Under the pieces are notes generated by a model. That model was given only the letters and a program-made list of their open reading frames with translations, did no database searches and was not told where the DNA came from. The position numbers and the translations under genes were made by a program. Below are positions 27,636 through 62,688 of a stretch of 64,000 nucleotides of DNA, in pieces. Numbering within the stretch: position 1 is the stretch's first letter; each line of letters starts with the position of its first letter. The stretch is from Cenococcum geophilum 1.58 (lineage: Eukaryota; Ascomycota; Dothideomycetes; Gloniales; Gloniaceae). The stretch spans positions 862,195-926,194 of the forward strand of contig KV748180.1 of the NCBI GenBank assembly GCA_001692895.1, given 5' to 3'.

Positions 27636-29351
27636 CTACGCAATCGCCAAGAAAGATAGCAGCACTCCATACGTCGCCTGTAGCAAGACCGTCTCCTCCG
27701 CCGTATAAGTCCCATTAAACACTGGATCAGGCGTCGTCGTATTGTCCGGGATCGACTTGTCAAACACCAACTGGCTAACATTATGCGCCGCTCCATCAGT
27801 CTGCGGCATCTCTCCGTCCACGAAATAAGCCTTCACGGCTTTCGCAATTCCCAGCGAGGCAATGCTGACAGTCGTGTGCCCCGGGCCCTCCCGAATCACC
27901 AGCCTCGACGAGTTGGGCAGCGCGGCGCGCAGCCGCCGTGCTGACGCAAGCGGCGTGTTCGTATCGTGCCTGTTGTTGATAATCAGCATGGGTGTCTTCT
28001 GCGCAGCTAGGATCAAATCCGCGTCCGAGAGGCTCGCGGCACCAATGTTGGGAATCTGAGCGCGAGTCGTTGGGCCGTGCCGGCAGAAGAGGATGGGCCC
28101 CAGATCGGCGTTCAACCAAGGCGTGTTCTGGTTCAGCGAGATATGCTCGAAGGCCGAGGTGATGTAAGACAGTGAAAGCTGCGTGGAGGGCGCGTTGTCC
28201 ATGCACTGCAGCGGGGGGGATGCGAGGATACGGGACCCCTGGGCAGCCGCACTGCGATCGCTTGGTTCCGAGGCGGCGCTGGCGGACATGATGGCGGCGA
28301 AGGTGCTGGGATCACGATCCTCCAAGCTTGCGATAGCGGAGGCGATGAGTGGCCAGGTCGTTGGAACGAGGAAGAAGGTCCAGAGCAGGGCGCTTAGAAT
28401 ACCGACTGTGATGGAGGAGCTCGAAGAGACCTTGACCGGGTTTTGGAAGACAGCTTCGTGCAGCTTGTATATCCGGTCGACGAGGTGACTGACAAATGTT
28501 GCGTTTGCGGCTAAAGCGCAGCCTTCAGAACCTGCAGCTATACAGAGTGCGGCGAAGTCGTGGATAGCATCGTTGATCGAGATCTGGTCGTTGGGAAGTT
28601 GCACGTCATACGTCTTCGCATTAGCCGCTGCATCGAAAACGCCATCCAGCACAATTCGTCCGACACGCTCGGGGAACGTCTGGATGAACTCGACGCCAAA
28701 AATGGTGCCGTACGAAAAGCCCCAGTAGTTCAGGGGCTTGTCAGTGCCGTCAAGTTCGTCCACGATAGCCGCCATGTCGCGCACTACATACGCTGCCGTC
28801 GATGTGAAAAGCGCCGACGGATTTTTAGCGATGCACGCATCCGCAAATATCCTATACGAGGCATCGAGATCTTTCAAGCTTGCGCTGACCACTGCGCTGG
28901 AGGACGCGTTGCGCAGCTCGCCCAGGGATGTATCAGCTGCTACCAGCAGCTCGGTCTCAAAGTCGTACTCCTCCCCAACGGTATCGAAACACACCAAGCG
29001 CGGCTCTGCTTCGCCAATGCCCCGTGGGTCCCAACCGATGATGTCGTAGAAGCCGCCCGTCAACGCGGAGATGGACTCTCCCGCACCATTCAGCACGAAA
29101 GATTTGCCAGACGCACCGGGTCCGCCGGGATTGACAAGGAGAGAGCCCTTGCGCTCTCCAGAGGAAACGGTGGCTTTGTAGCGCGCGAGTGGAATGATCG
29201 CAGTCCCACCTTGCCCGCTAGAGGCAGCATATTCAAGCGGGACTGAGAGGGTCGCACAGTCGAGTCCCGTGCCGCATGATATCCAGGTAAGTGTCGCTGA
29301 TGAAGTAATGCCAAAGAATGCGAGTAGTGCTATCGGAATTTTGGTAGGCAT
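27636..29351 (-). CDS. Secreted alpha/beta-hydrolase peptidase (S33 / TAP-like)
   Basis: A single-exon gene of 571 residues. Residues 1 to about 19 form a signal peptide (hydrophobic IALLAFFGIT core), so the product is probably secreted. The fold shows the oxyanion block NPGGPGASG (74-82), the WDPRG block (107-111), the nucleophile elbow GFSYGT with Ser213, the acid in NRHDTNTP with Asp463, and GPGHTT with His492. The C-terminal part around 450-515 is the TAP-like domain found in tripeptidyl aminopeptidases of this family. Such enzymes usually trim short peptides from the N-terminus or hydrolyse small esters; the substrate here is not visible. Base composition is normal, so the gene escaped RIP although mutated retroelement DNA lies within about 600 bp of its 3' end. 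It ends in a hydrophobic stretch (about 555-571) that could hint at a GPI or membrane tail. Confidence 0.85.
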   Translation of the reverse strand: MPTKIPIALLAFFGITSSATLTWISCGTGLDCATLSVPLEYAASSGQGGTAIIPLARYKATVSSGERKGSLLVNPGGPGASGKSFVLNGAGESISALTGGFYDIIGWDPRGIGEAEPRLVCFDTVGEEYDFETELLVAADTSLGELRNASSSAVVSASLKDLDASYRIFADACIAKNPSALFTSTAAYVVRDMAAIVDELDGTDKPLNYWGFSYGTIFGVEFIQTFPERVGRIVLDGVFDAAANAKTYDVQLPNDQISINDAIHDFAALCIAAGSEGCALAANATFVSHLVDRIYKLHEAVFQNPVKVSSSSSITVGILSALLWTFFLVPTTWPLIASAIASLEDRDPSTFAAIMSASAASEPSDRSAAAQGSRILASPPLQCMDNAPSTQLSLSYITSAFEHISLNQNTPWLNADLGPILFCRHGPTTRAQIPNIGAASLSDADLILAAQKTPMLIINNRHDTNTPLASARRLRAALPNSSRLVIREGPGHTTVSIASLGIAKAVKAYFVDGEMPQTDGAAHNVSQLVFDKSIPDNTTTPDPVFNGTYTAEETVLLQATYGVLLSFLAIA

Positions 29352-29977
29352 GTTGGAAGCCAGGAAGAATTAGAAATGAAGCAGATAGATAATCCGATGA
29401 TCGCACTCTCGAAATCCACTGGAGGAATGGCAGCCGAATAGGGACAGACAAATTAAACCGAAGCGCAAAGTAAGGACCGTAGAAGTGAAATAAGCTGCAA
29501 GACTTAAAAGAGCGAAAAGTCGACTGCCAACATGATAGTTTAACCAGAGCGCAACCAAACTTTCTCAAAGAAGAGCTCAAAGGCTAAGCAACGCAGGTTC
29601 ATTTCCTTTAATTATGCATCTGTAAAAACTGTCACAAATAAAATGTCGAACTCAGTTACGGGGCGGACCTTTTTCGGCGCTATCCAGCGGTGTGGAAATA
29701 AATCCTAGCGCGCATTTGTAATTTGGCATTATTCGCGACGCTAATCTCCACGCGACTAATTAACACCATTTTTAAAATAGAACGCTGCTAGAGAAGCGGC
29801 CCCCTAGGGGGGGTTTCTGTTTTTTTTATACACGCAGACGTAGACTACTGGCTGCTTAGCGAGCGGATGAGTGACCTTACCGCATAGGGTAAATACATGG
29901 GCGTATGGCTGGCCTAATGGGTCAATGGTACGCGCGCATCAGCGCCTCATTAGCGGGGGGGGTAAGATATTCGAATA
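29352..29977. other. Intergenic region upstream of the peptidase gene
   Basis: Unmutated, mostly unique-looking DNA. The first 250 bp upstream of the minus-strand start should hold its promoter. A C-run/G-run/T-run stretch at 29800-29830 and a G-run near 29955 stand out. No gene or RNA was recognised. Confidence 0.4.
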
Positions 29978-50739: not shown

Positions 50740-53160
50740 AGGCGAGGCCTCGGCGCCTTAGAATTAGGTAACTTCACTAATTATTTTATATATAATTAAT
50801 ATAATACCGTAAGTACTATTCTAACGTTTAGTTTAGTCTATTTAACTAGGCCGCCACTAATCATACACCCTCTAAATGATACACGTACACCCCCTACCTC
50901 ATATAGTTTGGATGCTTCCTTATTAAGTTAGAACATCACGTGCGTTTGACATGTTTGCGCCTGCATCGCGAAAATCAAAAGTGCGACCGCGATACCACGA
51001 TTAAGTCTTAATTTTAGTTATAGTACAAGTAGCAGAGTCTAAATTAGATTACGCAGTGCTATGTGAGGCGTTACGCGAATTAATTTAGGTGCTGCTACCT
51101 CTGTTTAATGTCTGTAAGCTGCCTCCGCGCCCACACCCGCGCCTCCACCCGCGCTCGCGCGTGCGCCCGGTAGGAGTCTAGCCAGTATTTCACTCAAATA
51201 CTAAGGGCTCTCTACGAGTAAATCCGTCGACACGATTAATAATTATAGAGCTAGTTATAGAGCCAATTGACCGACCGCGGCGACGCTCTATAATTGTAGG
51301 CTCTTAGGTGTGAAGTTAAGGTATTAATTTGGATGGGCGCGCACTTTGATTTTCGCGATACAGGCACGCACAAGTTAAACGCACGTGATATTCTAACTTA
51401 ATAAGGAAGCGTCCAAACCAAATGAGGTAGGGGGTGTATGCGTATCAATTGGGGGGTGTACGTATATCATTTAGGGGGTGTATGATTAGTGGCGGCCTTT
51501 AACTATCCATTTATAGATAATATATAGTGGAAGTTACTACCTAAACCCCTTATTCCGCTAAAAATACTTCCTAAAATACTACTATAAATCTTAAGTCTCT
51601 ATCCAATATAATCTTTATTAGTACTCTATATCTTATAAATACTTCTTTAATATAGATTCTAGCTATATCTTCTACTAAGATTTCTTCTATATATACTATA
51701 AAGTAGCCCTACTTAGTTAACTTATCTACTATTACTAGGATTACGTTATACTCCCATCCGGTAATAGAATCTTTTAACTTTAATAACTTTATAATAAAGT
51801 CTTATAATATTGTTTTCTATAGTCTCTTTAGTATTTTAATAGGTTATAGCCCTCTGTATAACTTATACCTTATTAGTTTATTCCTTTAATAATTTAGATA
51901 TTTCTTTATAACTTATCTTACTAGTCCTTAGATTTTTTAAATAATATACCCCTCTTAAAGACTTAATATTAAGCCTATAGCCCTATTATACCTTTATATT
52001 ATTCCTTTATGGAATTCTTTAACAAATTCTTTCGCTATACTTCTTAGGATATATGTAGCTTCTTAGTGCTTATATTATTCTATATTTAGATCTTTTAGCT
52101 ATGCCTCTAAAATCTATTATACCTAAAAGCTCTCTAGTGTCTTATAGACTCGTTCTAGTTCTTCTTCCTAAGTTACTATTAATTTAGGGTAATTATATCT
52201 AATTCTTCTATCTTTATCCTTTTGTAATATAGCTCTTAATAGCCTTTCTTTATTTTATAGTTCTGCCTTCCTACTAAGTATATCTACGCTTACGTTTTTA
52301 GTACCCTTAGTATACTAAATCTCGAAATAATATTCTATAAGTATTTCTACTTATTTAATTTATCTTTAGTTAAGTTCCTTTATTATTAGGAACCCTATTA
52401 GGTCTTATAATCTATTTTAACTATAAATAGTTTTCCTATACCTTATAAAAATGCCCTTTATTCCTTAAGTACTATAACTATACCTAGTAACTCTTTATTA
52501 TAGGATATTATAGTTCAGTTCCGGTAGTATTACCTTCTGGCTATAATATACTATTAGGTACTATATATCCTAATACTTCTATAATAGTATACTCCTAATA
52601 TAAAGTATAATACGTCCGTCTTAACCACTATCTCTAGTACTAGTTAGTAGATTTTAAGGATTAGATCTTAGGTAAATAACTCCTTAAGTTCCTAGAATAG
52701 GTTCTTCTTATTACTCTATACCTACAGTTACTCCTTTTTTATTAATTAAGTAAATAGCTTAATGTTTTTTTGGACTGCTATGTAGTAGACTTCCTATAGT
52801 AATTATAAAACCCTAGAAACAATCTTAACTATATAACATTCTCTAGTTTTTACTAACTTACTATAGCTTTAACATTATTTTAGGTCTATACTAATATGTC
52901 CTAGTTTAATAACAAATTTGATAAAATTAGTCTTCTTTATACTACTAGCATCTATTCCTCTTATAGTCTCTTTAAGACCTATTTAATATATTTTCTATAT
53001 TCTTCTTAACTTATAGAGTTGATAATAATAATATTAAGATATACGATAATAAATCTATCTAGGTGTTCTTCTAATATACTATTAATTTACTTTTAGAACG
53101 TTGCTAGTACGTTTATAAGCCCGAATTATATAACTAATAGTTTATATAGTATAAGGTAAG
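50740..53160 (-). mobile_element. Gypsy relic of the C family (minus strand)
   Basis: Read on the minus strand, it has RT (about 53160-52900), RNase H (about 52700-52300) and integrase (about 52150-50760). Its integrase matches element C closely (KLxRGLxPIKIL, DFIxKLLKLKDSITG, YFIVYIEEIL, DRDLRFIVVF). The integrase is interrupted by the inverted-repeat element 50849-51497. It is truncated at both ends and RIP-mutated. Confidence 0.8.
50849..51497. mobile_element. 649-bp non-autonomous TIR DNA transposon (MITE-like)
   Basis: The termini are perfect inverted repeats for the first 19 bp (GGCCGCCACTAATCATACA) and stay similar for about 140-160 bp. An exact 8-bp target duplication TTTAACTA flanks it (50841-50848, 51498-51505). 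Eight-bp duplications with long inverted repeats suggest MULE or hAT affinity. The right arm has three TGATAYRYRTACACCCCC-like subunits and the left arm two. CA and TG are common, so it escaped RIP. No transposase frame exists. Confidence 0.88.
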
Positions 53161-53370
53161 GATATAGATAGGGAGTCCAATTAATAGAACAATAGGGTAT
53201 ATTTTATAGATAGACAAATCTTTAAGGGAAAAGGAGGAGTCTATATGCGAGGTAAGGAAGGGCTTTCTCTAGGTATACATAGCGTACGTACCTTATAGGC
53301 AAGTCGCCTGCGGGTCGCCTATACCTTGCAGCTATATAGCTATCTACTTAGGTTTTATCTAATAATACCC
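53155..53370 (-). repeat. LTR-like block with polypurine tract (minus)
   Basis: On the minus strand, TTTAAAGGGGGGGG ends directly before TATTATTAGATAAAACC at about 53370, as at a 3' LTR start. The left end near 53155 is uncertain and no partner LTR was found. Confidence 0.45.
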
Positions 53371-53429
53371 CCCCCTTTAAAAAGGAATGTGTAAGGGATC
53401 TTTTGGCGGCTGCTAAGGCCAGCCCTCAG

Positions 53430-53640
53430 CTAGGCCTTAGCACCTCCTTATAAGCTCCCTTAAGCTTATAGCCCTCTTGCCCTCCTTATCGGTTCGTCTC
53501 TGTACTTAGGCTATTGCCTACCCTCATTACCATATCGGCCTTTTCTATTGACTCTCCTTATAACTTATGCTCGGCTTACCTACTTCCTACCGTATACCCT
53601 AGCAATGTGCCTTACAGAATATCCCCAATCCTTTCTATAC
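53430..53640. repeat. Inverted homologue of 46180-46400, less mutated copy
   Basis: It aligns with the reverse complement of 46180-46400 but keeps many CA and TG dinucleotides (TTGCC, CATTACCATAT). Confidence 0.65.
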
Positions 53641-53724
53641 TTGGGCCTTAATAAAACCCTATAAAACACCTTAATAAGGAAAAAATTAAAAGGGAAAGAT
53701 GGGTATATATATATACTCTGCCGG

Positions 53725-53973
53725 TAGGTTATAAGTTATTTATATATAGCTAGACGCATAGGCGGTAAGGCAGTATACCTATTAAATCTGCCGCTAACCC
53801 TATACTTTAGCCTTACAGCATACTGGCGTAGCGCGTATATACTTTATATATAGGTTATAGATTACTTATATATAGCTAGGCTTATAGACAGTAAGACAGT
53901 ATACCCTTGAAATTCGCCGCTAATCCTATACGTTAGCCTTATATTATCTACGTAGTATATATATAGAATAGTA
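53725..53973. repeat. 126-bp tandem pair
   Basis: TAGGTTATAAGTTATTTATA at 53725 and TAGGTTATAGATTACTTATA at 53851 begin two similar units that share CCGCTAA.CCTATAC.TTAGCC. Confidence 0.75.
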
Positions 53974-54139
53974 TATAAGTTGTCGATATAGGTTACTACT
54001 AGTAGGTTATTAGTAGGTTATAAACCTTAGTTAAAGGACACTAGTTATAAATGGACATATAATAATATATAAGTCGTTAGTATGGGTTATTACTAGTAAG
54101 TTACTAGTAGGTTATAGACCCTAGTTAAAGGACTCTAGT
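53974..54139. repeat. 94-bp tandem pair
   Basis: Units begin at 53974 and 54068 and share ACTAGTAGGTTAT and CTTAGTTAAAGGACACTAGTTA with small changes. Confidence 0.75.
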
Positions 54140-54364
54140 TATTAGCGACTTAGTTAATTAAGGCACTAGTACGGCAATATAACGCGCGCAAGCCTATATA
54201 ATTGGTTGTCTATAGATAAGGATCTAAAGCTAAGAAAGGGAAAGGAAAAGAAGAAGAGCAGCGCCGTTTAAAGTAGTGTTCTTTTATACGGTCCTTTAGT
54301 TACGTAACCGCATCTCTCTACTAAGTTTTGCCAAGTTTTACCAAATTCTACTAGTACTATAACA
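54140..54364 (-). repeat. LTR of the Gypsy F family (solo or truncated)
   Basis: It matches the F LTR from TATTAGCGACTTAG to ACTATAACA (225 bp). The flanking five bases differ (CTAGT versus CTTAA), so no target duplication supports a clean solo LTR. Orientation is inferred from F. Confidence 0.7.
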
Positions 54365-55120
54365 CTTAACATACTTATAATAATTCTCTTTACTATTTAA
54401 GTATATAATAATATTATCTAGGTAAGCTATAACGAACTTATTATAGTATTCTGCTAATATATTAATCCGCTTTTAAAACGTCGCTAGTATATTTATAAAT
54501 CGGAACTATATTACTAATGGTTTATATAGTCCTTCTTTAGTCCTAAATACCCCTTTTTATTTATTACTTTCCTTAATCCTAACCTAATAGCATCCCTATT
54601 TTAGATCTATCTCTATAAAGATTTATATGTTATCTATTTACCTTAGATCTTACTAATTAAGGGTAATGAATACTTATTCTTCTTCGTAATACTATTTAGC
54701 TACTAATAATTAATAATTAACTATTCTTATAGAGGATATAATAAACTTAGTTAAGCTTTATATTATAGGAGATAGTTAGTAAGATTATATCTAACCGTAG
54801 ATTTAGGTGCTCTATAGGCGCTAAAGGCCTTATAAATTAACGGCTTAATTGTGAGGTGATAAGCTCCGCACCACTCAGCCACACAAACCTACAAAAGGTA
54901 AGCAAGTGACTGGCTTGATGCCAGACACGGCTGTGCGGAACAATACATATAGGCGAGGTGACTTCGTCACCTGACATTAATGCTAGAAAAAAGATCTTAT
55001 ATAATATTTTATATAGTAGTCTCGGCTTTATAAGAGGGCAAAGATTAATTTATATAATATACTAAGGCCTTTTAATTTTAGTGTAATTTACTATAAAAAT
55101 TAAAATAGTAGGTATTTATA
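54365..55120 (-). mobile_element. Gypsy RT fragment (minus strand)
   Basis: Minus-strand reading gives the RT palm blocks (TKIDLKxxY..IRIKE, YKPLVI..xFxxxNxxATFxKxIN, YLDNIIIY) between about 54800 and 54380. A short stretch (54468-54532) parallels 53091-53151 of the other relic, so the two are separate copies. It is split by the 127-bp mini-LTR and ends before the gasdermin-like gene. Confidence 0.7.
54850..54976. mobile_element. 127-bp mini-LTR insertion without RIP
   Basis: TGTGAGGTGA at one end and TCACCTGACA at the other are inverted. A perfect TTAAT duplication flanks it (54845-54849, 54977-54981). CA and TG are common, unlike the DNA around it. AGGTGACTTCGTCACCT near its right end is a hairpin. 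The size and TG..CA ends with a 5-bp duplication fit a solo LTR of a very small (SMART-like) retrotransposon. Confidence 0.82.
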
Positions 55121-55368: not shown

Positions 55369-56220
55369 ATGCCACGAACCGAAAAGCCAACATGGTTTCT
55401 GCTCAAGAGCACTGACTACCAGCCTGGGGGTTATCTAACCTTGGGTCGCATCCTGAAGTCCTACGACCCAGGCGACATCCTCAATCCAGGCCTCCTCCCC
55501 AAAGTCGCATCGAAAATAGACTCTGTCCCAAAAAAAGTAGTTACTGAGGCATTCGTCTCTGGCCAGAGTGTCATGGTAGGACTATTCGTAAAATTCTTGG
55601 AAGTTACCGGACTCGGCGGCGAGGCAGGCTTCGGCTTCGGCAAGAGCGACGCCGTTAAATACAATATCGAGAAGCTCGAGACCCACCACTTTATTCCAGA
55701 GGCCGACTTTGTGAAGGAGTGCTTGAAATCTCCAGATGTGCAGGATTACATCACTGGTGGTTGGATCAAGAAAAACATCTACATGATATCAGGCGTCAAG
55801 ATCGCGATTGGAGCGCAGATGGAAAGAATTGACTCGAGTCAACAGGATGTACACCTTCGTGGAGGAGTTAATACAAGTGCGACTTGTGTACCAATTGATT
55901 TAGGGTTGGCCGGTACAGCCTCATCGTCGAGCCAGCAGATCAGGTCGTTCAGAGATTCGGCCGGCTTCGTATATGCGTTCCGCCTAAGACAGGTTTACTA
56001 TAGCAAGGACAAGGTCAGAACTGAGCCTGTTGCAGGACAATTCTACAATGTGCATGGTTCAGAACAGGACCTTGATGATGATGACGACGACGAGCCGGAA
56101 GAGGTGGCTGCATTTTGGGGGTTGGGGGAAGGAGATGTCAATATAGAGCTCGAGTTTGGTTTGCAACCTTCTGAAACAGTTAGAGATGGTAATGAGGAAT
56201 GTAATTACGTTATTGTATGA
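55369..56220 (+). CDS. Gasdermin-like cell-death protein (RCD-1 / HET-Q1-like)
   Basis: A single exon of 283 residues with no signal peptide and no clear transmembrane helix. Recognised features are an N-terminal WFLLKS..YQPGGYLTLGRIL (9-29), the middle FLEVTGLGGEAGFGFGKS with LETHHFIP (77-110), YMISGVKIAIGA (138-149) and GFVYAFRLRQVYY (199-211). This layout recalls the fungal gasdermin family, whose N-terminal part forms membrane pores and kills the cell once a short C-terminal part is cleaved off. Residues 231-283 form an acidic tail, with a D/E run at 234-245, that could be the inhibitory part. The neighbour, convergent and 146 bp away, is a subtilisin-like protease gene, the known genomic partner. 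The assignment rests on pattern recognition; the gene is intact and not RIP-mutated. It starts about 250 bp from retroelement DNA. Confidence 0.68.
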   Translation: MPRTEKPTWFLLKSTDYQPGGYLTLGRILKSYDPGDILNPGLLPKVASKIDSVPKKVVTEAFVSGQSVMVGLFVKFLEVTGLGGEAGFGFGKSDAVKYNIEKLETHHFIPEADFVKECLKSPDVQDYITGGWIKKNIYMISGVKIAIGAQMERIDSSQQDVHLRGGVNTSATCVPIDLGLAGTASSSSQQIRSFRDSAGFVYAFRLRQVYYSKDKVRTEPVAGQFYNVHGSEQDLDDDDDDEPEEVAAFWGLGEGDVNIELEFGLQPSETVRDGNEECNYVIV

Positions 56221-56366
56221 GGACTCGGACAAAGGATTGAGGCATTCTGGATATGCTAATAGAGAGCAATCTTCTGGGACATTTTCCCGAGAAAATTGGA
56301 TATACTAATTGAGATTTACCACGAATCCGCGCACATCACTCACAAGATTTAGAGACCGAACTTCAC
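56221..56366. other. 146-bp convergent spacer of the gasdermin/protease pair
   Basis: Both stop codons face this spacer. It contains two similar short blocks (GGATATGCTAAT near 56250 and GGATATACTAAT near 56299). Confidence 0.55.
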
Positions 56367-58656
56367 CTAGAATACCTTCTCGATTGCAGCCTTGATGAAA
56401 GACTTAACATCTTGATATTCCTTGCGTGTGCCTAAAAACTCCCAAGGTGTCAACACCTTGTCACCGTGCCCTTCGCCTCCCATATCCTTGAATACTTGCA
56501 CCATTACATCTCCTCGCTTCAACGACCTAATGTATTCTTCTGAGAGCGCTGGTATTCCAGGAGGTGGGCTTTGTCTTGCAAACTGAAGAATGAGTGCAGC
56601 AATAGCAGCTGCAATAGGGGTGGCAGTTGACGTCCCGTTTCTGCGTTGCGTAATTCCTTGACATAGGCTGGCCGGGACTGCTGATTCCACCCCTTCCCCC
56701 AACGTGGCAATGTATGTGTGGCCTGTAGCTTTATGGGGATTGAATTTTGACCAGGTCCCGCTTCCATCGGTCGAGAAGATTGAGATAACTTGACTCCAAA
56801 GTGCGGGCGCTGCTACGGAAGTTGTATTAGAACGGGCATCATTTGAAGCAGCCGCAAACATCAGGGTCTTCTCAATTGCTGCACGGTTGACAGCGTCGAA
56901 AACTTCCTCATGGCCAGGGACGCGCCCTTTCCAACCGAAGGACATAGTAATGATGTCTACATTCCATTGAGTAACGGCGTGATCGATAGCCTTTCCTTCT
57001 GTTATCATTATACCTCAGCAAGGGTCAAATAAAACATACCTTGGCCACGTGAGATGGAAAATTGGGACCAGGTCTATCACCGATACTTACCTTCTCCACG
57101 TAGATATCTGCGCTTGGAGCATATCGAAGCAGCAACCAGGTAGAATGGGTCCCATGGCCGGATCTATCTATCTTCGATCGTCCTTCTGCTCCCTCTCTTC
57201 CCTTAGTCCAATCAGCCCAGCCTTTGATCCGGTGTCTCTCTGTTTGGATTAGAGGATGCTCATAATCCACGCCCGTGTCGATAATCGCAATCTTAACAGG
57301 ATCACCGTTGTGTTTGGCAGGCGCACGTTGCAGCATGTAGTGAACATCAGTCAGTTTTTTGAACCATGCTTCAGCGCTTCGACGTCTGTTCTGCAAGTAA
57401 GTTTCGACATGGTACCGGAGGAGATGAGGGGTGGCATAGTCTTACAGGTCAGGGTGGTAAGCATTCGTATCATCCGAGTCATACAACTGAAAGCGCCCAT
57501 ATTTTATGTTCTCTCCATCAGATGAAGATTCCTCAAGGGGCTCTGAGTCTTTTGGTCTTGACGAAAGGTCTGAAACTAGAGAAACTGGTTGCGATGGATC
57601 GCCTTTGCTGACAGTTGAGAATGCTGCCACACTCTGGCCTTTTGGCGTCGCAGCAGGAGCATTCGTTATGGTCATTTGATCTTGAAGCTTTGAGTTGGCA
57701 ATATGCTCTAGTAATATATCTCGTACTTCTGTGCTCGGCTTTTCGGTTGCGTATGTTAGGGCTGTGTATCCATTTTTTGTCTTTGCCTGAATGTCAGCCC
57801 CCCGATCGAGCAGCATCTTGACCACCTCAACTCGCTCTTGGATCACTGCGCGGATTAGGGCTGTTGATCCACTGTTTATGGACTTTGCCTCAATATCAGC
57901 GCGATTATCAAGCAGCACTTCCATCGCGGCTTTCTGCCCCGCATCAGCTGCTACTATGAGGGCTATAGGCCCATTCTTAGCCTCAATAGCAGCTCCGTTG
58001 TTCAATAGGGCCTTTACTACCGCTATATGGCCTTCGGAAGCTGCCATTGAAAGAGCCGTGAATCCCCTGTTGGTCTTTGCCTCGATATCGGATCCATGTG
58101 CGAGGAGTAACTTCACCACAGCCTCCTGGCCCATCTGAGCAGCGAGCATTAGGGCCGTGGACCCATCAGTCCTCCTTGCCTTCACATCAGCATCCCACAG
58201 AAGTAGCAGCTTCACCACGGCCAACCTCCCGAGCTGGGATGCAAGTATGAGAGGCGTAGATTTGCTATTGTTAGTCTTTGCTTCGACGTCGGCATTTCGA
58301 TCAAGCAATAATTTCACTATCGCTCTGTGCCCATCGTTAGCTGCACGTAGCAAGGCAGTGAGTCCACTTCCCTTGAGATTCGCCTCAATATTGGCGCCTC
58401 GGTCGAGGAGTAGCCTCACGATCGTTTCGTAACCCCTAGCGGCCGCATGGTATAGCGCCGTCCCTTCGTTGCCGTCCTCTGCATTAACATGGACTCCCTT
58501 ATCTAGCAGCAGCCGTACTTTTATTTCGTCCCCATTTGTAGCCGCCCATATCAATTCTGCCTTGTCTTGATCGGTAGTGCACTGGCTTGAGGTCGCAGAT
58601 CTGGCACTGGATGGTTCGGGGCTAGCCGTGCTAGCGACTGTAGTTCTCGCGGACAT
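56367..58656 (-). CDS. Ankyrin-repeat subtilisin-like serine protease (S8), partner of the gasdermin-like gene
   Basis: Three exons on the minus strand, 58656-57446, 57385-57040 and 56990-56367, give 726 residues. The introns are 60 bp (GTAAGA..AACAG) and 49 bp (GTATGT..GAAAG); both phases fit and the domain reads without breaks. Residues 34-320 are about nine ankyrin repeats (TALxxAAxxGxxxVVKLLLxxGADIEAK). Residues 321-403 are a polar Ser/Pro/Glu linker. The peptidase S8 domain (about 430-660) has Asp440 in IAIIDTGVD, His481 in SGHGTH, the oxyanion Asn569 in AAASND and Ser640 in NGTSTATP, so all catalytic residues are present. There is no signal peptide, so it is likely cytosolic. Subtilisins of this type beside fungal gasdermins cleave and activate them; the ankyrin array could sense a trigger. 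It has no prodomain of the secreted type. Confidence 0.86.
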
Positions 58657-60597
58657 TTGTAAAGTTCCTATAACTGGAGATGTTGGTTCGTTGGGAACGG
58701 CGAGCGGTATTTAGTCCCTTGGCTAGTCGTGGATTGTCCTAGGGTTGTCTTAACTTGAATATTTACGGCAAAGAAGTTATTGATTAGATCGCAGCGGTCC
58801 GTGCGCTTATCCGAATCCGATAACTGAATCCAAAAACGCGCCATTTATAATGGAACTGTGATGGTCTAAGAGATTAGCGAAGTCCGTGAATCATAAGTAA
58901 GAACATGCTTTAGGCGCAGTAGCCTTATCTCCAAATAGTTTTTAATTGCATATATACATTTGGTTGGTAGTTTGCTAAGCATTATCTTGCTACTTAAGAA
59001 TGGTTTGCGGGAGAATGTTCTTTTTCGCGTGCAATTATTGTGACTGCACGTACAAATCGCACAGCTAAAAGGCTCTGTAGACAGCGCTTGGTTGGCTCGT
59101 ACAAAATGCTCAGAAAAAAGGCGTTATAGGCTGCTTAATTAAGGATACCAAGCTAGAGAGAAGAGAACAGAGGACAAGTGAGAGGTCTCTGGATTTAAGT
59201 ACAAAATCCCCTGGTCTAGCGCCGTACACTGAGACAGGAGTCATGTGAAGCATGTGACGGGTATACGTTTTCAGATAATATAATAGAAATTACACTTAAT
59301 GAAATTGTAAAAATTAAAGGTAACAATTTGAATAAAATATAGCCACACCACCCTGGCGCATCCGGTTGAAAGCACCTTTTTAGTGCTGCCGATCGTTCGG
59401 AGAACGCCGCCTGTTTTACTAGTTAGAATAGGGCTAAACCCCAAAAAATTAGCGTGCTTAGAAAAACGCCCATAACAAAATTAAATGAAGCTTTTCAAAC
59501 CAAACTATTGTAAGGGATTTGCCTATATACTAATTTCTATGGAGGAGCAATTAAGCAATCGTTAAATTGGCAAACGAGAGCCTAATTCCTTCCTTTAAGC
59601 TCTCTAAATCTACCACTTAGTTATAGCTCCCTCGGCTGTAATTATGTTGCATACACGCTGCGCCACAATCGTTACTATCTACTTTATGTATCAACACCTG
59701 TCATGGGACTCACCGGCGCACGTTCGTCAGGCACCTACGCACGTACCTTCGCTACCCCTATTCGTTTCCTTTTCTGTTTCTGCATTCGGACTTCTTGACC
59801 AATTACGCGGTTAATGCACGGTAGCATGAGAAAATAGCTAGCAATTAAGCTTATTTTAGATTGCGTCGTCGACCCCTGTGATAACACCTTTCTACTTTAC
59901 CTCTTTACCCTTATAGATAAAACCACTTAAAGAGGCGTATGAGTCTTTCTATGTAAAGGAACGCGCTGGGTGTCATGAATATTGCTCAGTAATATAAAAT
60001 TAAGAAGAGCCGTATCACCTTAAGAGCACCTGATGTGATTGCGACTCCTTTGACCTAGTTTTTTTCAGCTCTACGATCGCGAGTTGAGGTTGTTCGGATA
60101 TTTCCATTTGATATCGACGGTCGATCTACATACGGCTAATAGAAGGCTTGATCGACATGTGCTTTCAACTGGGTGTGCTAGGGTGGCTGAGAATCTTGGC
60201 AAGGGGCTGAGCGAAATTTTTAGAAGCTGATGCACAAACATGTTGACGTTATCGATAAAGCATGCCGGACGGGATAGCTGCACAAGCTGGAAACAGGGAA
60301 GCAGCTCTCCTACATCCGAATTCACTCCTCTTGTACGGTCTCTTCTTGGCTCTCCAAGATTCGCTCTTTGCTGTCTTTGCTTTTGCTTAGATGCTAGATC
60401 CTCTAGCCACTTCGTTCTTTGCTATTGCTCGAATCCTTCCGATTCGTCTCTAGACACTAGAATTCTACATTCTCCTTTTTCCGTTAAATTACGACTATAG
60501 CCTTATTATTTGCACTCCTTTGCATTTGACTCCTCAGTTCGATCAAGTCTTTCCCTTTCGATGTTAATCACCCGCTGAACTCGTTGCTGTAACCAGC
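58657..60597. other. Long intergenic region between protease and mannosidase genes
   Basis: Divergent promoters for both genes should lie at the two ends. A block near 59148-59180 (AAGGATACCAAGCTAGAGAG) resembles the LTR-like family at 44740 and 47545 but is not RIP-mutated. CT-rich stretches near 60340-60560 precede the mannosidase start. No gene, tRNA or other element was recognised. Confidence 0.45.
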
Positions 60598-62688
60598 ATG
60601 AAACCGCTCCTTCGCCGATGGACTCTCCTATGTGCCCTAGCATTTTTCCTAGTATTCGGTTTTTATCGGCTTGCAGGCTGGGGCCCCGCCCTACGCCCAG
60701 CTAGAAAGTCCTCCCCTCCATCTGGACGAATTACCCACCCTGTGAAATGGAAGAAAGTTCCATTACGGTACCCTGTCTCGTCTATGATACCATTACCTTC
60801 TGGGACACCTGCTGCAATCCCCAAAATCCAACACGACTTCGGTATTGAGACACAGGGAAATAAAGAAGAGAGAGAGAGGCGGCTCGCAGCTGTCAAGCGG
60901 ACATTCTTGCATTCCTGGGAAGGCTACAAGAAACATGCCTGGCTGCAGGATGAGGTGACGCCCGTGTCTGGTGGGTATAAGAATAGTTTTGGAGGACGAG
61001 CTGCGACATTGGTAGACACACTTGATACACTGTCGATAATGGGACTGGATAAGGAATTTGCATTGGCGCTTACGGCATTGAAAAGAATTGACTTCACTAC
61101 TACAGAAGTGCCTACACTTAATGTTTTCGAAACAACAATCCGCTACTTGGGAGGTTTGCTCAGCACCTACGATCTCAGCGAAGGCAAGTACTCCATCCTT
61201 CTCAAGAAAGCTACGGAGCTGGGTGATATGCTGTACACTGCATTTGACACACCGAACCGACTGCCAATCACTCGCTGGAACTGGGAGAAGTACATTTTCC
61301 CCCCAGTACCGACTTCCATCTGGCTGATCATCTTTCTAGTGGGGCACTCAGCGGAGAACAGGAAGCCCCATCGCAAGCCCTAAGTGCCGAGCTAGGTTCT
61401 TTAAGTCTTGAGTTCACCCGCCTCTCACAAATAACTGGCGATCCGAAATACTTCGATGCAGTCCAGCGAATATCCGACCAATTCGAAAAATATCAAAACG
61501 ATACCAGTATCCCAGGACTGTGGCCCGTCCGCATCAACCCGCAACGTGAGTCTTTCACAGTCGACCGCACTTTCACATTCGGTGGCATGTCCGACTCCCT
61601 ATACGAATACTTTCCCAAGCAACACATGCTGCTCGGCGGCCTGGTGTCACAATACCGCAAACTATACATCGGCGCTATCGAAGCCGCAAAAAAGTACCTC
61701 TTCTTCCGTCCCCTGAACCCCGAAAACCAGGACATTCTGCTTTCAGGCACAGTCAAGAAGGGCGTGGCCGACTTCCTGGACCTGCAACCAGAAGGCCAGC
61801 ACCTAGCCTGCTTCACTGGCGGTATGGTGGGGATCGCGGCCAAGATCTTCGAGCGGCCGGATGACCTCGCGATCGCGCGCAAGCTGGTCAACGGCTGCAT
61901 CTGGGCCTACGAGTCGATGCCGACGGGCATCATGCCGGAGAGTTTCAGTGTGGTGCCGTGCCCGGACCCGGACGACTGCGCGTGGAGCTACGAGCGGTGG
62001 TACGACGGCGTCATGCATGAGCAGCAGCGGCGGTGGGTCGAGACGGCGGACGAGAAGGTCGCGCACGCCAGGAGGATCATCGAGGAGGATAAGCTCGCGC
62101 CTGGGTTTACGGGGATCACGGATCGCAGGTTTTTGCTGCGGTATGCTGCAACCCCTTCCTACCTCCGCTCCCTCTTTACCCCTCCCTGAAACACCCTTAA
62201 CCCTACCCCATTCCGTCCCATCCTGCTCCTTCATATCCTGCTCCTTCATTCCGCGCAGTTTTTCCCCCTCATTTCTTAGCTAACATTGGGATCGTTTTTC
62301 TAGTCCCGAAGCCATCGAGTCTATCTTCATCCTGTACCGCATCACGGGCGATACGACGCTGCAGGACAAGGCGTGGCGCATGTTCCAAGCCGTGACGCGG
62401 CACACCAACACCAGCATCGCTAACAGCGCCATCGCGGACGTGACGACGCCGGACCCGGAGCGCATCGACGAGTGCGAGAGCTTCTGGATGGCCGAGACGC
62501 TCAAGTACTTCTATCTCGTCTTCAGTGAGCCGCAGGTTGTCAGTCTAGATAAGTTTGTCTTGTGAGTATTTCGTCTGTTTTCATTCTTGAGGGGAGGGGA
62601 GGTGGTTGTGGGATGGGGGTGACTAGTCGAGATGGCTGGGCTGACTCGATATAGTAATACTGAGGCGCACCCGCTGCGCCGGCCGTAA
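60598..62688 (+). CDS. GH47 class I alpha-1,2-mannosidase
   Basis: Four exons, 60598-61289, 61340-62140, 62304-62561 and 62655-62688, give 594 residues. The introns (50, 163 and 93 bp) have GT-AG ends, and GCTAAC lies before the second acceptor. Residues 9-27 are a signal anchor, making a type II membrane protein of the ER or Golgi. GH47 blocks appear in order: [19 protein letters not shown] (132-150), [13 protein letters not shown] (231-243), [14 protein letters not shown] (about 311-323), [34 protein letters not shown] across the second splice, [17 protein letters not shown], and the C-terminal [10 protein letters not shown], whose Thr binds the calcium ion. These enzymes trim alpha-1,2-linked mannose from N-glycans. 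The tiny last exon (34 nt) supplies the calcium-binding motif and is easy to miss. The gene appears intact. Confidence 0.92.

Follow-up and report, generated by a model that had tools for sequence, protein, structure and literature searches.

Does the gasdermin-like gene that faces an ankyrin-subtilase gene in Cenococcum geophilum 1.58 form a cell-death module with its neighbour, and how would such a module be set off? Both genes lie in a stretch of 64,000 nucleotides of contig KV748180.1, which we call the window and in which positions are counted from the first letter; an earlier note on this DNA had proposed, from the letters and their open reading frames, that the two genes work as a pair.

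The gasdermin gene occupies positions 55369 to 56220 of the forward strand, stop codon included, as a single exon; its open frame (55369-56217, with the stop at 56218-56220) is unbroken, makes an intron unnecessary and encodes 283 aa. A Pfam scan of the protein gave zero matches above cut-off, and the sole match, to ketoacyl-synt at E 0.045, fell under its cut-off and was taken as chance; its identity therefore rests on profile and fold matches. The family profile was taken from an eight-row alignment, A1, comprising the window's protein, P0002, two paralogs from C24 and one row each from C102, C1, C65 and C92. Compared with solved pores, this profile matched Neurospora crassa RCD-1-1 at 7e-19 and HET-Q1 (chain 9uv9_A) at 5.5e-16; the window's protein alone, searched without the profile, matched RCD-1-1 at only E 0.0035. 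The AlphaFold model of the 283-aa protein is middling (mean pLDDT 65, pTM 0.58, three of the five models at or below 51), and in a Foldseek search with it gasdermins made up all 13 top matches, with loose superpositions (the best row has a TM of 0.44 by query length and an rmsd of 8.1). HET-Q1 (9uv9) was absent among the Foldseek and VIA rows listed and was matched by the profile instead. Judged by profile and predicted structure, the product is a fungal gasdermin with the gasdermin N-terminal fold. The earlier note had described an intact gasdermin-like protein of this length and had suggested a profile search and a structure prediction for it; the frame is intact, and both approaches recovered the family and the fold.

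The neighbouring gene lies on the minus strand, from an ATG at 58656 to a stop ending at 56367, and with splice sites predicted from the sequence it has three exons and encodes 726 aa. Exon 1 (57446-58656) carries the N-terminus, ankyrin repeats (about nine by eye; Pfam E 2.6e-54) and a linker. The S8 domain starts in exon 2 (57040-57385; Peptidase_S8, 8.1e-6), which holds D440 (57277-57279) and H481 (57154-57156), and continues in exon 3 (56367-56990, stop included; 4.6e-17) with N569 of the oxyanion hole (56841-56843) and S640 (56628-56630), so that the catalytic set is complete. The two predicted introns, of 60 nt (57386-57445) and 49 nt (56991-57039), are both of the GT-AG type; for the second, two alternative combinations of sites were tried and both disrupt the frame. 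Pfam searches of pieces covering exons 1 to 3 gave no NACHT or NB-ARC domain at E<=1, and the protein is thus not of the NLR receptor type. Some fungal NLRs carry fast-evolving, near-identical repeats. The ankyrin repeats of the window protease are not of this kind: no tandem repeat was found in 56200-58800 at a score of 30, and the mean identity is 42% among the seven repeats that start with T[AP]L. Among the best 120 of 370 S8 relatives, precomputed annotations contained no ankyrin Pfam accession on reading, and none appeared in the 10 that were rescanned; the ankyrin form was thus not seen among the nearest relatives of the protease by S8 domain, within those best 120.

The two genes converge, and 146 bp (56221-56366) separate their stop codons. 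On this side too the earlier note read the DNA correctly, since it had given the same convergent spacing, a 726-residue ankyrin and S8 protein with a full triad including Ser640 (D440, H481 and S640 are in place), and no NACHT or NB-ARC domain. Next to the module, positions 51001-55000 are AT-rich (26-36% GC) and bear a strong RIP-like signature, with a composite index of 1.0-1.4 per kb, that ends just before the gasdermin gene; the dinucleotide pattern of this block is not found in the module itself. We considered whether both genes could be pseudogenes or damaged by RIP and rejected this, as the frames are open, the catalytic residues are kept and the RIP-like signature ends before the module. 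A glycosyl hydrolase family 47 gene adjoins the module at 60568-62565 (Pfam 9.6e-36 on 62284-62565, the sole piece scanned), and further away the minus strand has an open frame of 577 aa (27639-29369), which lies in a GC-rich stretch inside AT-rich sequence.

If the two genes belong together, the arrangement should not be confined to this locus. A search of the 177-Mb genome found seven gasdermins, six of which are adjoined by an S8 gene, and the S8 part of the window protease, used as a query, found eight places, six of them beside gasdermins. When another S8 query and the S8 model of Pfam are added, the number of S8 places rises to about 16 (15 counted from 17 rows, plus C35), a lower bound for large families, and the share paired with gasdermins is then 6 of about 16. 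In the six pairs the open frames are 58-532 bp apart, and the genes are convergent at C5 (the window pair), C24, C65 and C92 and divergent at C1 and C102. A binomial estimate for pairing at six of seven loci gives 1e-18 to 4e-18; the figure is too favourable, as it takes the pairs to be placed independently although those at C1 and C102 are duplicates. Chance adjacency of gasdermin and protease was rejected on the pairing at 6/7 loci, and the two-gene association proposed earlier is thereby seen to be non-random within the same genome. The identity matrices of gasdermins and S8 proteins are correlated across the six pairs (Mantel r 0.91, 4/720 permutations), a signal that rests largely on the duplicated C1/C102 pair, as r is 0.45 (8/120 permutations) when C102 is left out. 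The lists of relatives (the best 120 of 201, and the best 120 of 370 for S8) had no informative contig in common by eye, which says nothing either way on linkage in other species.

The seventh gasdermin, C24:1664589 (L004:1486-2373), has no S8 match nearby; a large neighbouring frame encodes a DUF3405 protein, and Pfam found no protease in the seven frames scanned of 17 others of at least 110 aa around it, so that a protease of a different type may yet lie there. Cleavage is therefore not universal, since this gasdermin lacks an S8 neighbour and RCD-1 works uncleaved. In one alternative the window gasdermin is activated without its neighbour, for instance when cells fuse and it encounters a gasdermin from a divergent allele, and the protease has another job. 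RCD-1 of N. crassa shares the gasdermin family and fold, is the best PDB match and top-scoring solved relative, and differs from a protease-activated gasdermin in being set off, uncleaved, by two antagonistic alleles, as described in the available excerpts of a review (PMC12881547; this and the other papers below are cited for such excerpts). Also in favour of this alternative, the window's protein (P0001) represents 7 member sequences on 29 contigs, so that several variants may exist. The S8 pairing at six of the seven loci argues against activation of this kind, as does a long acidic tail that extends past the end of the RCD-1 match, and we regard it as unlikely.

Three side observations were also made. 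At L017:2462-5038, some 1.6 kb away from the gasdermin of C65, a frame of 859 aa encodes a long array of TPR units (TPR_10, 1.8e-190) made of similar 126-bp repeats with matches of 79-91%. The C40 S8 gene (L029:1-2202) has an unnamed N-terminal frame of 331 aa, and no gasdermin was found beside it. Finally, two frames (L030:7973-8967 and L030:9023-9436) that contain the motifs YYGGH and DCCHAG, which we take to be caspase-like, lie just before an S8-like frame (L031:454-1068) whose catalytic D and S read G and A; the arrangement may represent an inactive subtilase linked to a caspase-like domain, to judge by the motifs, and the Pfam caspase model did not match the L030 frames, nor was a gasdermin found near them.

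The tail of the window gasdermin (residues 227-283; 56047-56217, plus strand) is presumed to be inhibitory. Its 57 residues contain 33% D/E and 2% K/R, against 10% and 12% in the preceding part, and are modelled with a pLDDT below 50; across a 94-row gasdermin alignment, A2, divided at the same column, mean D/E is 27% in the tail against 11%. Immediately before the acidic run stands GQFYNV (G223-V228; 56035-56052, plus strand), a candidate cleavage junction. HET-Q1 is reported to be cut at F238 and to lose 40 residues (PMC10989679), and by analogy P1 here would probably be F225 or Y226. The pattern G[AQ][FL][YF][GN] occurs at the junction in four of the eight A1 rows (window, P0002 and both C24 paralogs), and in five if A is permitted, which admits C102; the C1, C65 and C92 rows do not match. 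In A2 the window's junction motif occupies a different column, AA[YF]L is found in the tail region of 73/94 rows, and one of a set of loose motifs, followed by at least four D/E within 14 residues, is found in 85/94, a raw count without shuffled control, the set having been picked once the tails had been seen. The assignment of the cleavage residue is thus a weak one, because the motif is kept in only four or five of the eight A1 rows and shifts column in A2.

How does the pair compare with systems already described? Protease genes accompany about 80% of the gasdermin genes of fungi in clusters (PMC12881547, PMC10197012, PMC10989679 and PMC11138114); around 63% of fungal gasdermins cluster with S8 and another 19% lie near CHAT protease genes (PMC10197012), and the common forms include proteases that have ANK, TPR or WD40 repeats fused to them or next to them (PMC12881547, PMC10197012, PMC10989679). 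An ankyrin array fused directly to an S8 protease beside a fungal gasdermin is therefore an architecture already described and not new, and the window pair belongs to a known type of module, because ANK-, TPR- and WD40-S8 fusions beside gasdermins are listed in the excerpts of these reviews. The HET-Q2-like (Q2L) proteases are a close parallel: they too are S8 proteins whose genes lie beside a gasdermin gene and that have repeats fused directly, here with intact catalytic residues and a distance of 146 bp, and no difference from the window protease was found in the excerpts. Bacterial gasdermin systems with linked proteases resemble the pair in having a pore former next to a protease (PMC12881547), and there is a weak profile match (0.005) and a fold match to them; they differ in being distant in sequence from the window gasdermin.

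The analogy with Podospora anserina that had been drawn for this locus needs correction. HET-Q1 is a gasdermin of near length (278 aa, against 283 aa here) with a short C-terminal tail, and its partner HET-Q2 is an S8 subtilase, of 388 aa (PMC10989679), whereas the window protease has 726 aa and an ankyrin array. The earlier note presented het-Q1 and het-Q2 as linked genes; they are idiomorphs, that is, different genes at one locus (PMC12881547), whereas the window gasdermin and protease coexist side by side in one genome and are not an idiomorphic pair of this type. Since a single genome carries both genes, the default state of the protease must be a silent one, which is more in keeping with a sensor in signalling than with an allorecognition pair ready for use.

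Given that one product is a gasdermin by family and predicted fold, that the protease is intact and keeps its catalytic residues, and that the pairing recurs across the genome with proteases of varied N-terminal parts, we consider it probable that the two genes form a two-gene, protease-activated gasdermin cell-death module. In such a module the ankyrin-S8 protein would be a sensor protease, whose ankyrin array would hold the subtilase inactive, perhaps through a bound ligand or partner, until a signal freed it; the trigger of fungal sensor proteases is itself stated as an open question (PMC12881547). The active protease would then cut the neighbouring gasdermin near F225/Y226 and remove its acidic tail, roughly 57 residues long, and the freed N-terminal domain, by comparison with the solved pores of RCD-1 and HET-Q1, would insert into the plasma membrane, oligomerise and form pores, killing the cell. 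The module may serve in allorecognition or defence.

The same two proteins could in principle act in the opposite sense, the protease being an antidote that destroys the gasdermin; killing would then begin once the protease was lost or inhibited, on the principle of toxin-antitoxin and spore-killer pairs. A convergent, tightly linked two-gene unit bordering an AT-rich, RIP-like block would suit such an element. An antidote would have no need of sensor-like N-terminal parts, and fungal, animal and bacterial gasdermins are described as activated by proteolysis (PMC12881547, PMC10197012), so that we hold this to be very improbable. That the pores of the pair serve secretion or membrane repair and leave the cell alive has hardly any likelihood in our judgement: a review names secretion among the roles to be explored for such clusters, and the two fungal gasdermin systems that it treats, het-Q1/het-Q2 and rcd-1, both kill the cell (PMC12881547).

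Returning to protease-activated killing, the six proteases differ in their N-terminal parts, which are ankyrin in the window, DUF7580 at C24, C65 and C92, TPR at C1 and an unnamed 429-aa frame at C102. At C1 and C102 the gasdermin is flanked, opposite the protease, by a HET-domain gene, and the resulting cluster of HET, gasdermin and (TPR-like) S8 is duplicated, with a first copy at L010:6300-8651, L003:1303-2169 and L011:1090-3504 and a second at L014:6566-8902, L005:1399-2271 and L015:1341-3804. Between C1 and C102 the HET proteins are 51% identical, the gasdermins 51% and the S8 parts 54%; for the sensor part the alignment spans 256 residues with an identity of only 27%. Because the two clusters are duplicates, the HET adjacency counts as one event, and HET genes are common in this genome (439 candidates, 150 scored). 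In the openly licensed literature searched, of which excerpts were available, no description of a HET, gasdermin and S8 three-gene cluster was found; two- or three-gene clusters are mentioned in general terms in a review (PMC12881547).

These results may be of use beyond the locus itself. A compact pair of gasdermin and ankyrin protease, in which no ATPase domain was found, offers a simple system for the question of how a repeat array silences a protease, and with six paralogous pairs bearing varied sensors in one genome, swapping of partners can probe the specificity of the pairs. We tentatively suggest, as a possibility rather than the likelier case, that the genome holds a small interchangeable platform, in which a gasdermin executioner and an S8 activator are combined with varied sensors (ankyrin, DUF7580, TPR-like). 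If this were true, the sensor would be the fast-changing recognition part, the HET protein would be a third working component of the gasdermin pathway, and the ankyrin array of the window would be a direct, NTPase-free sensor.
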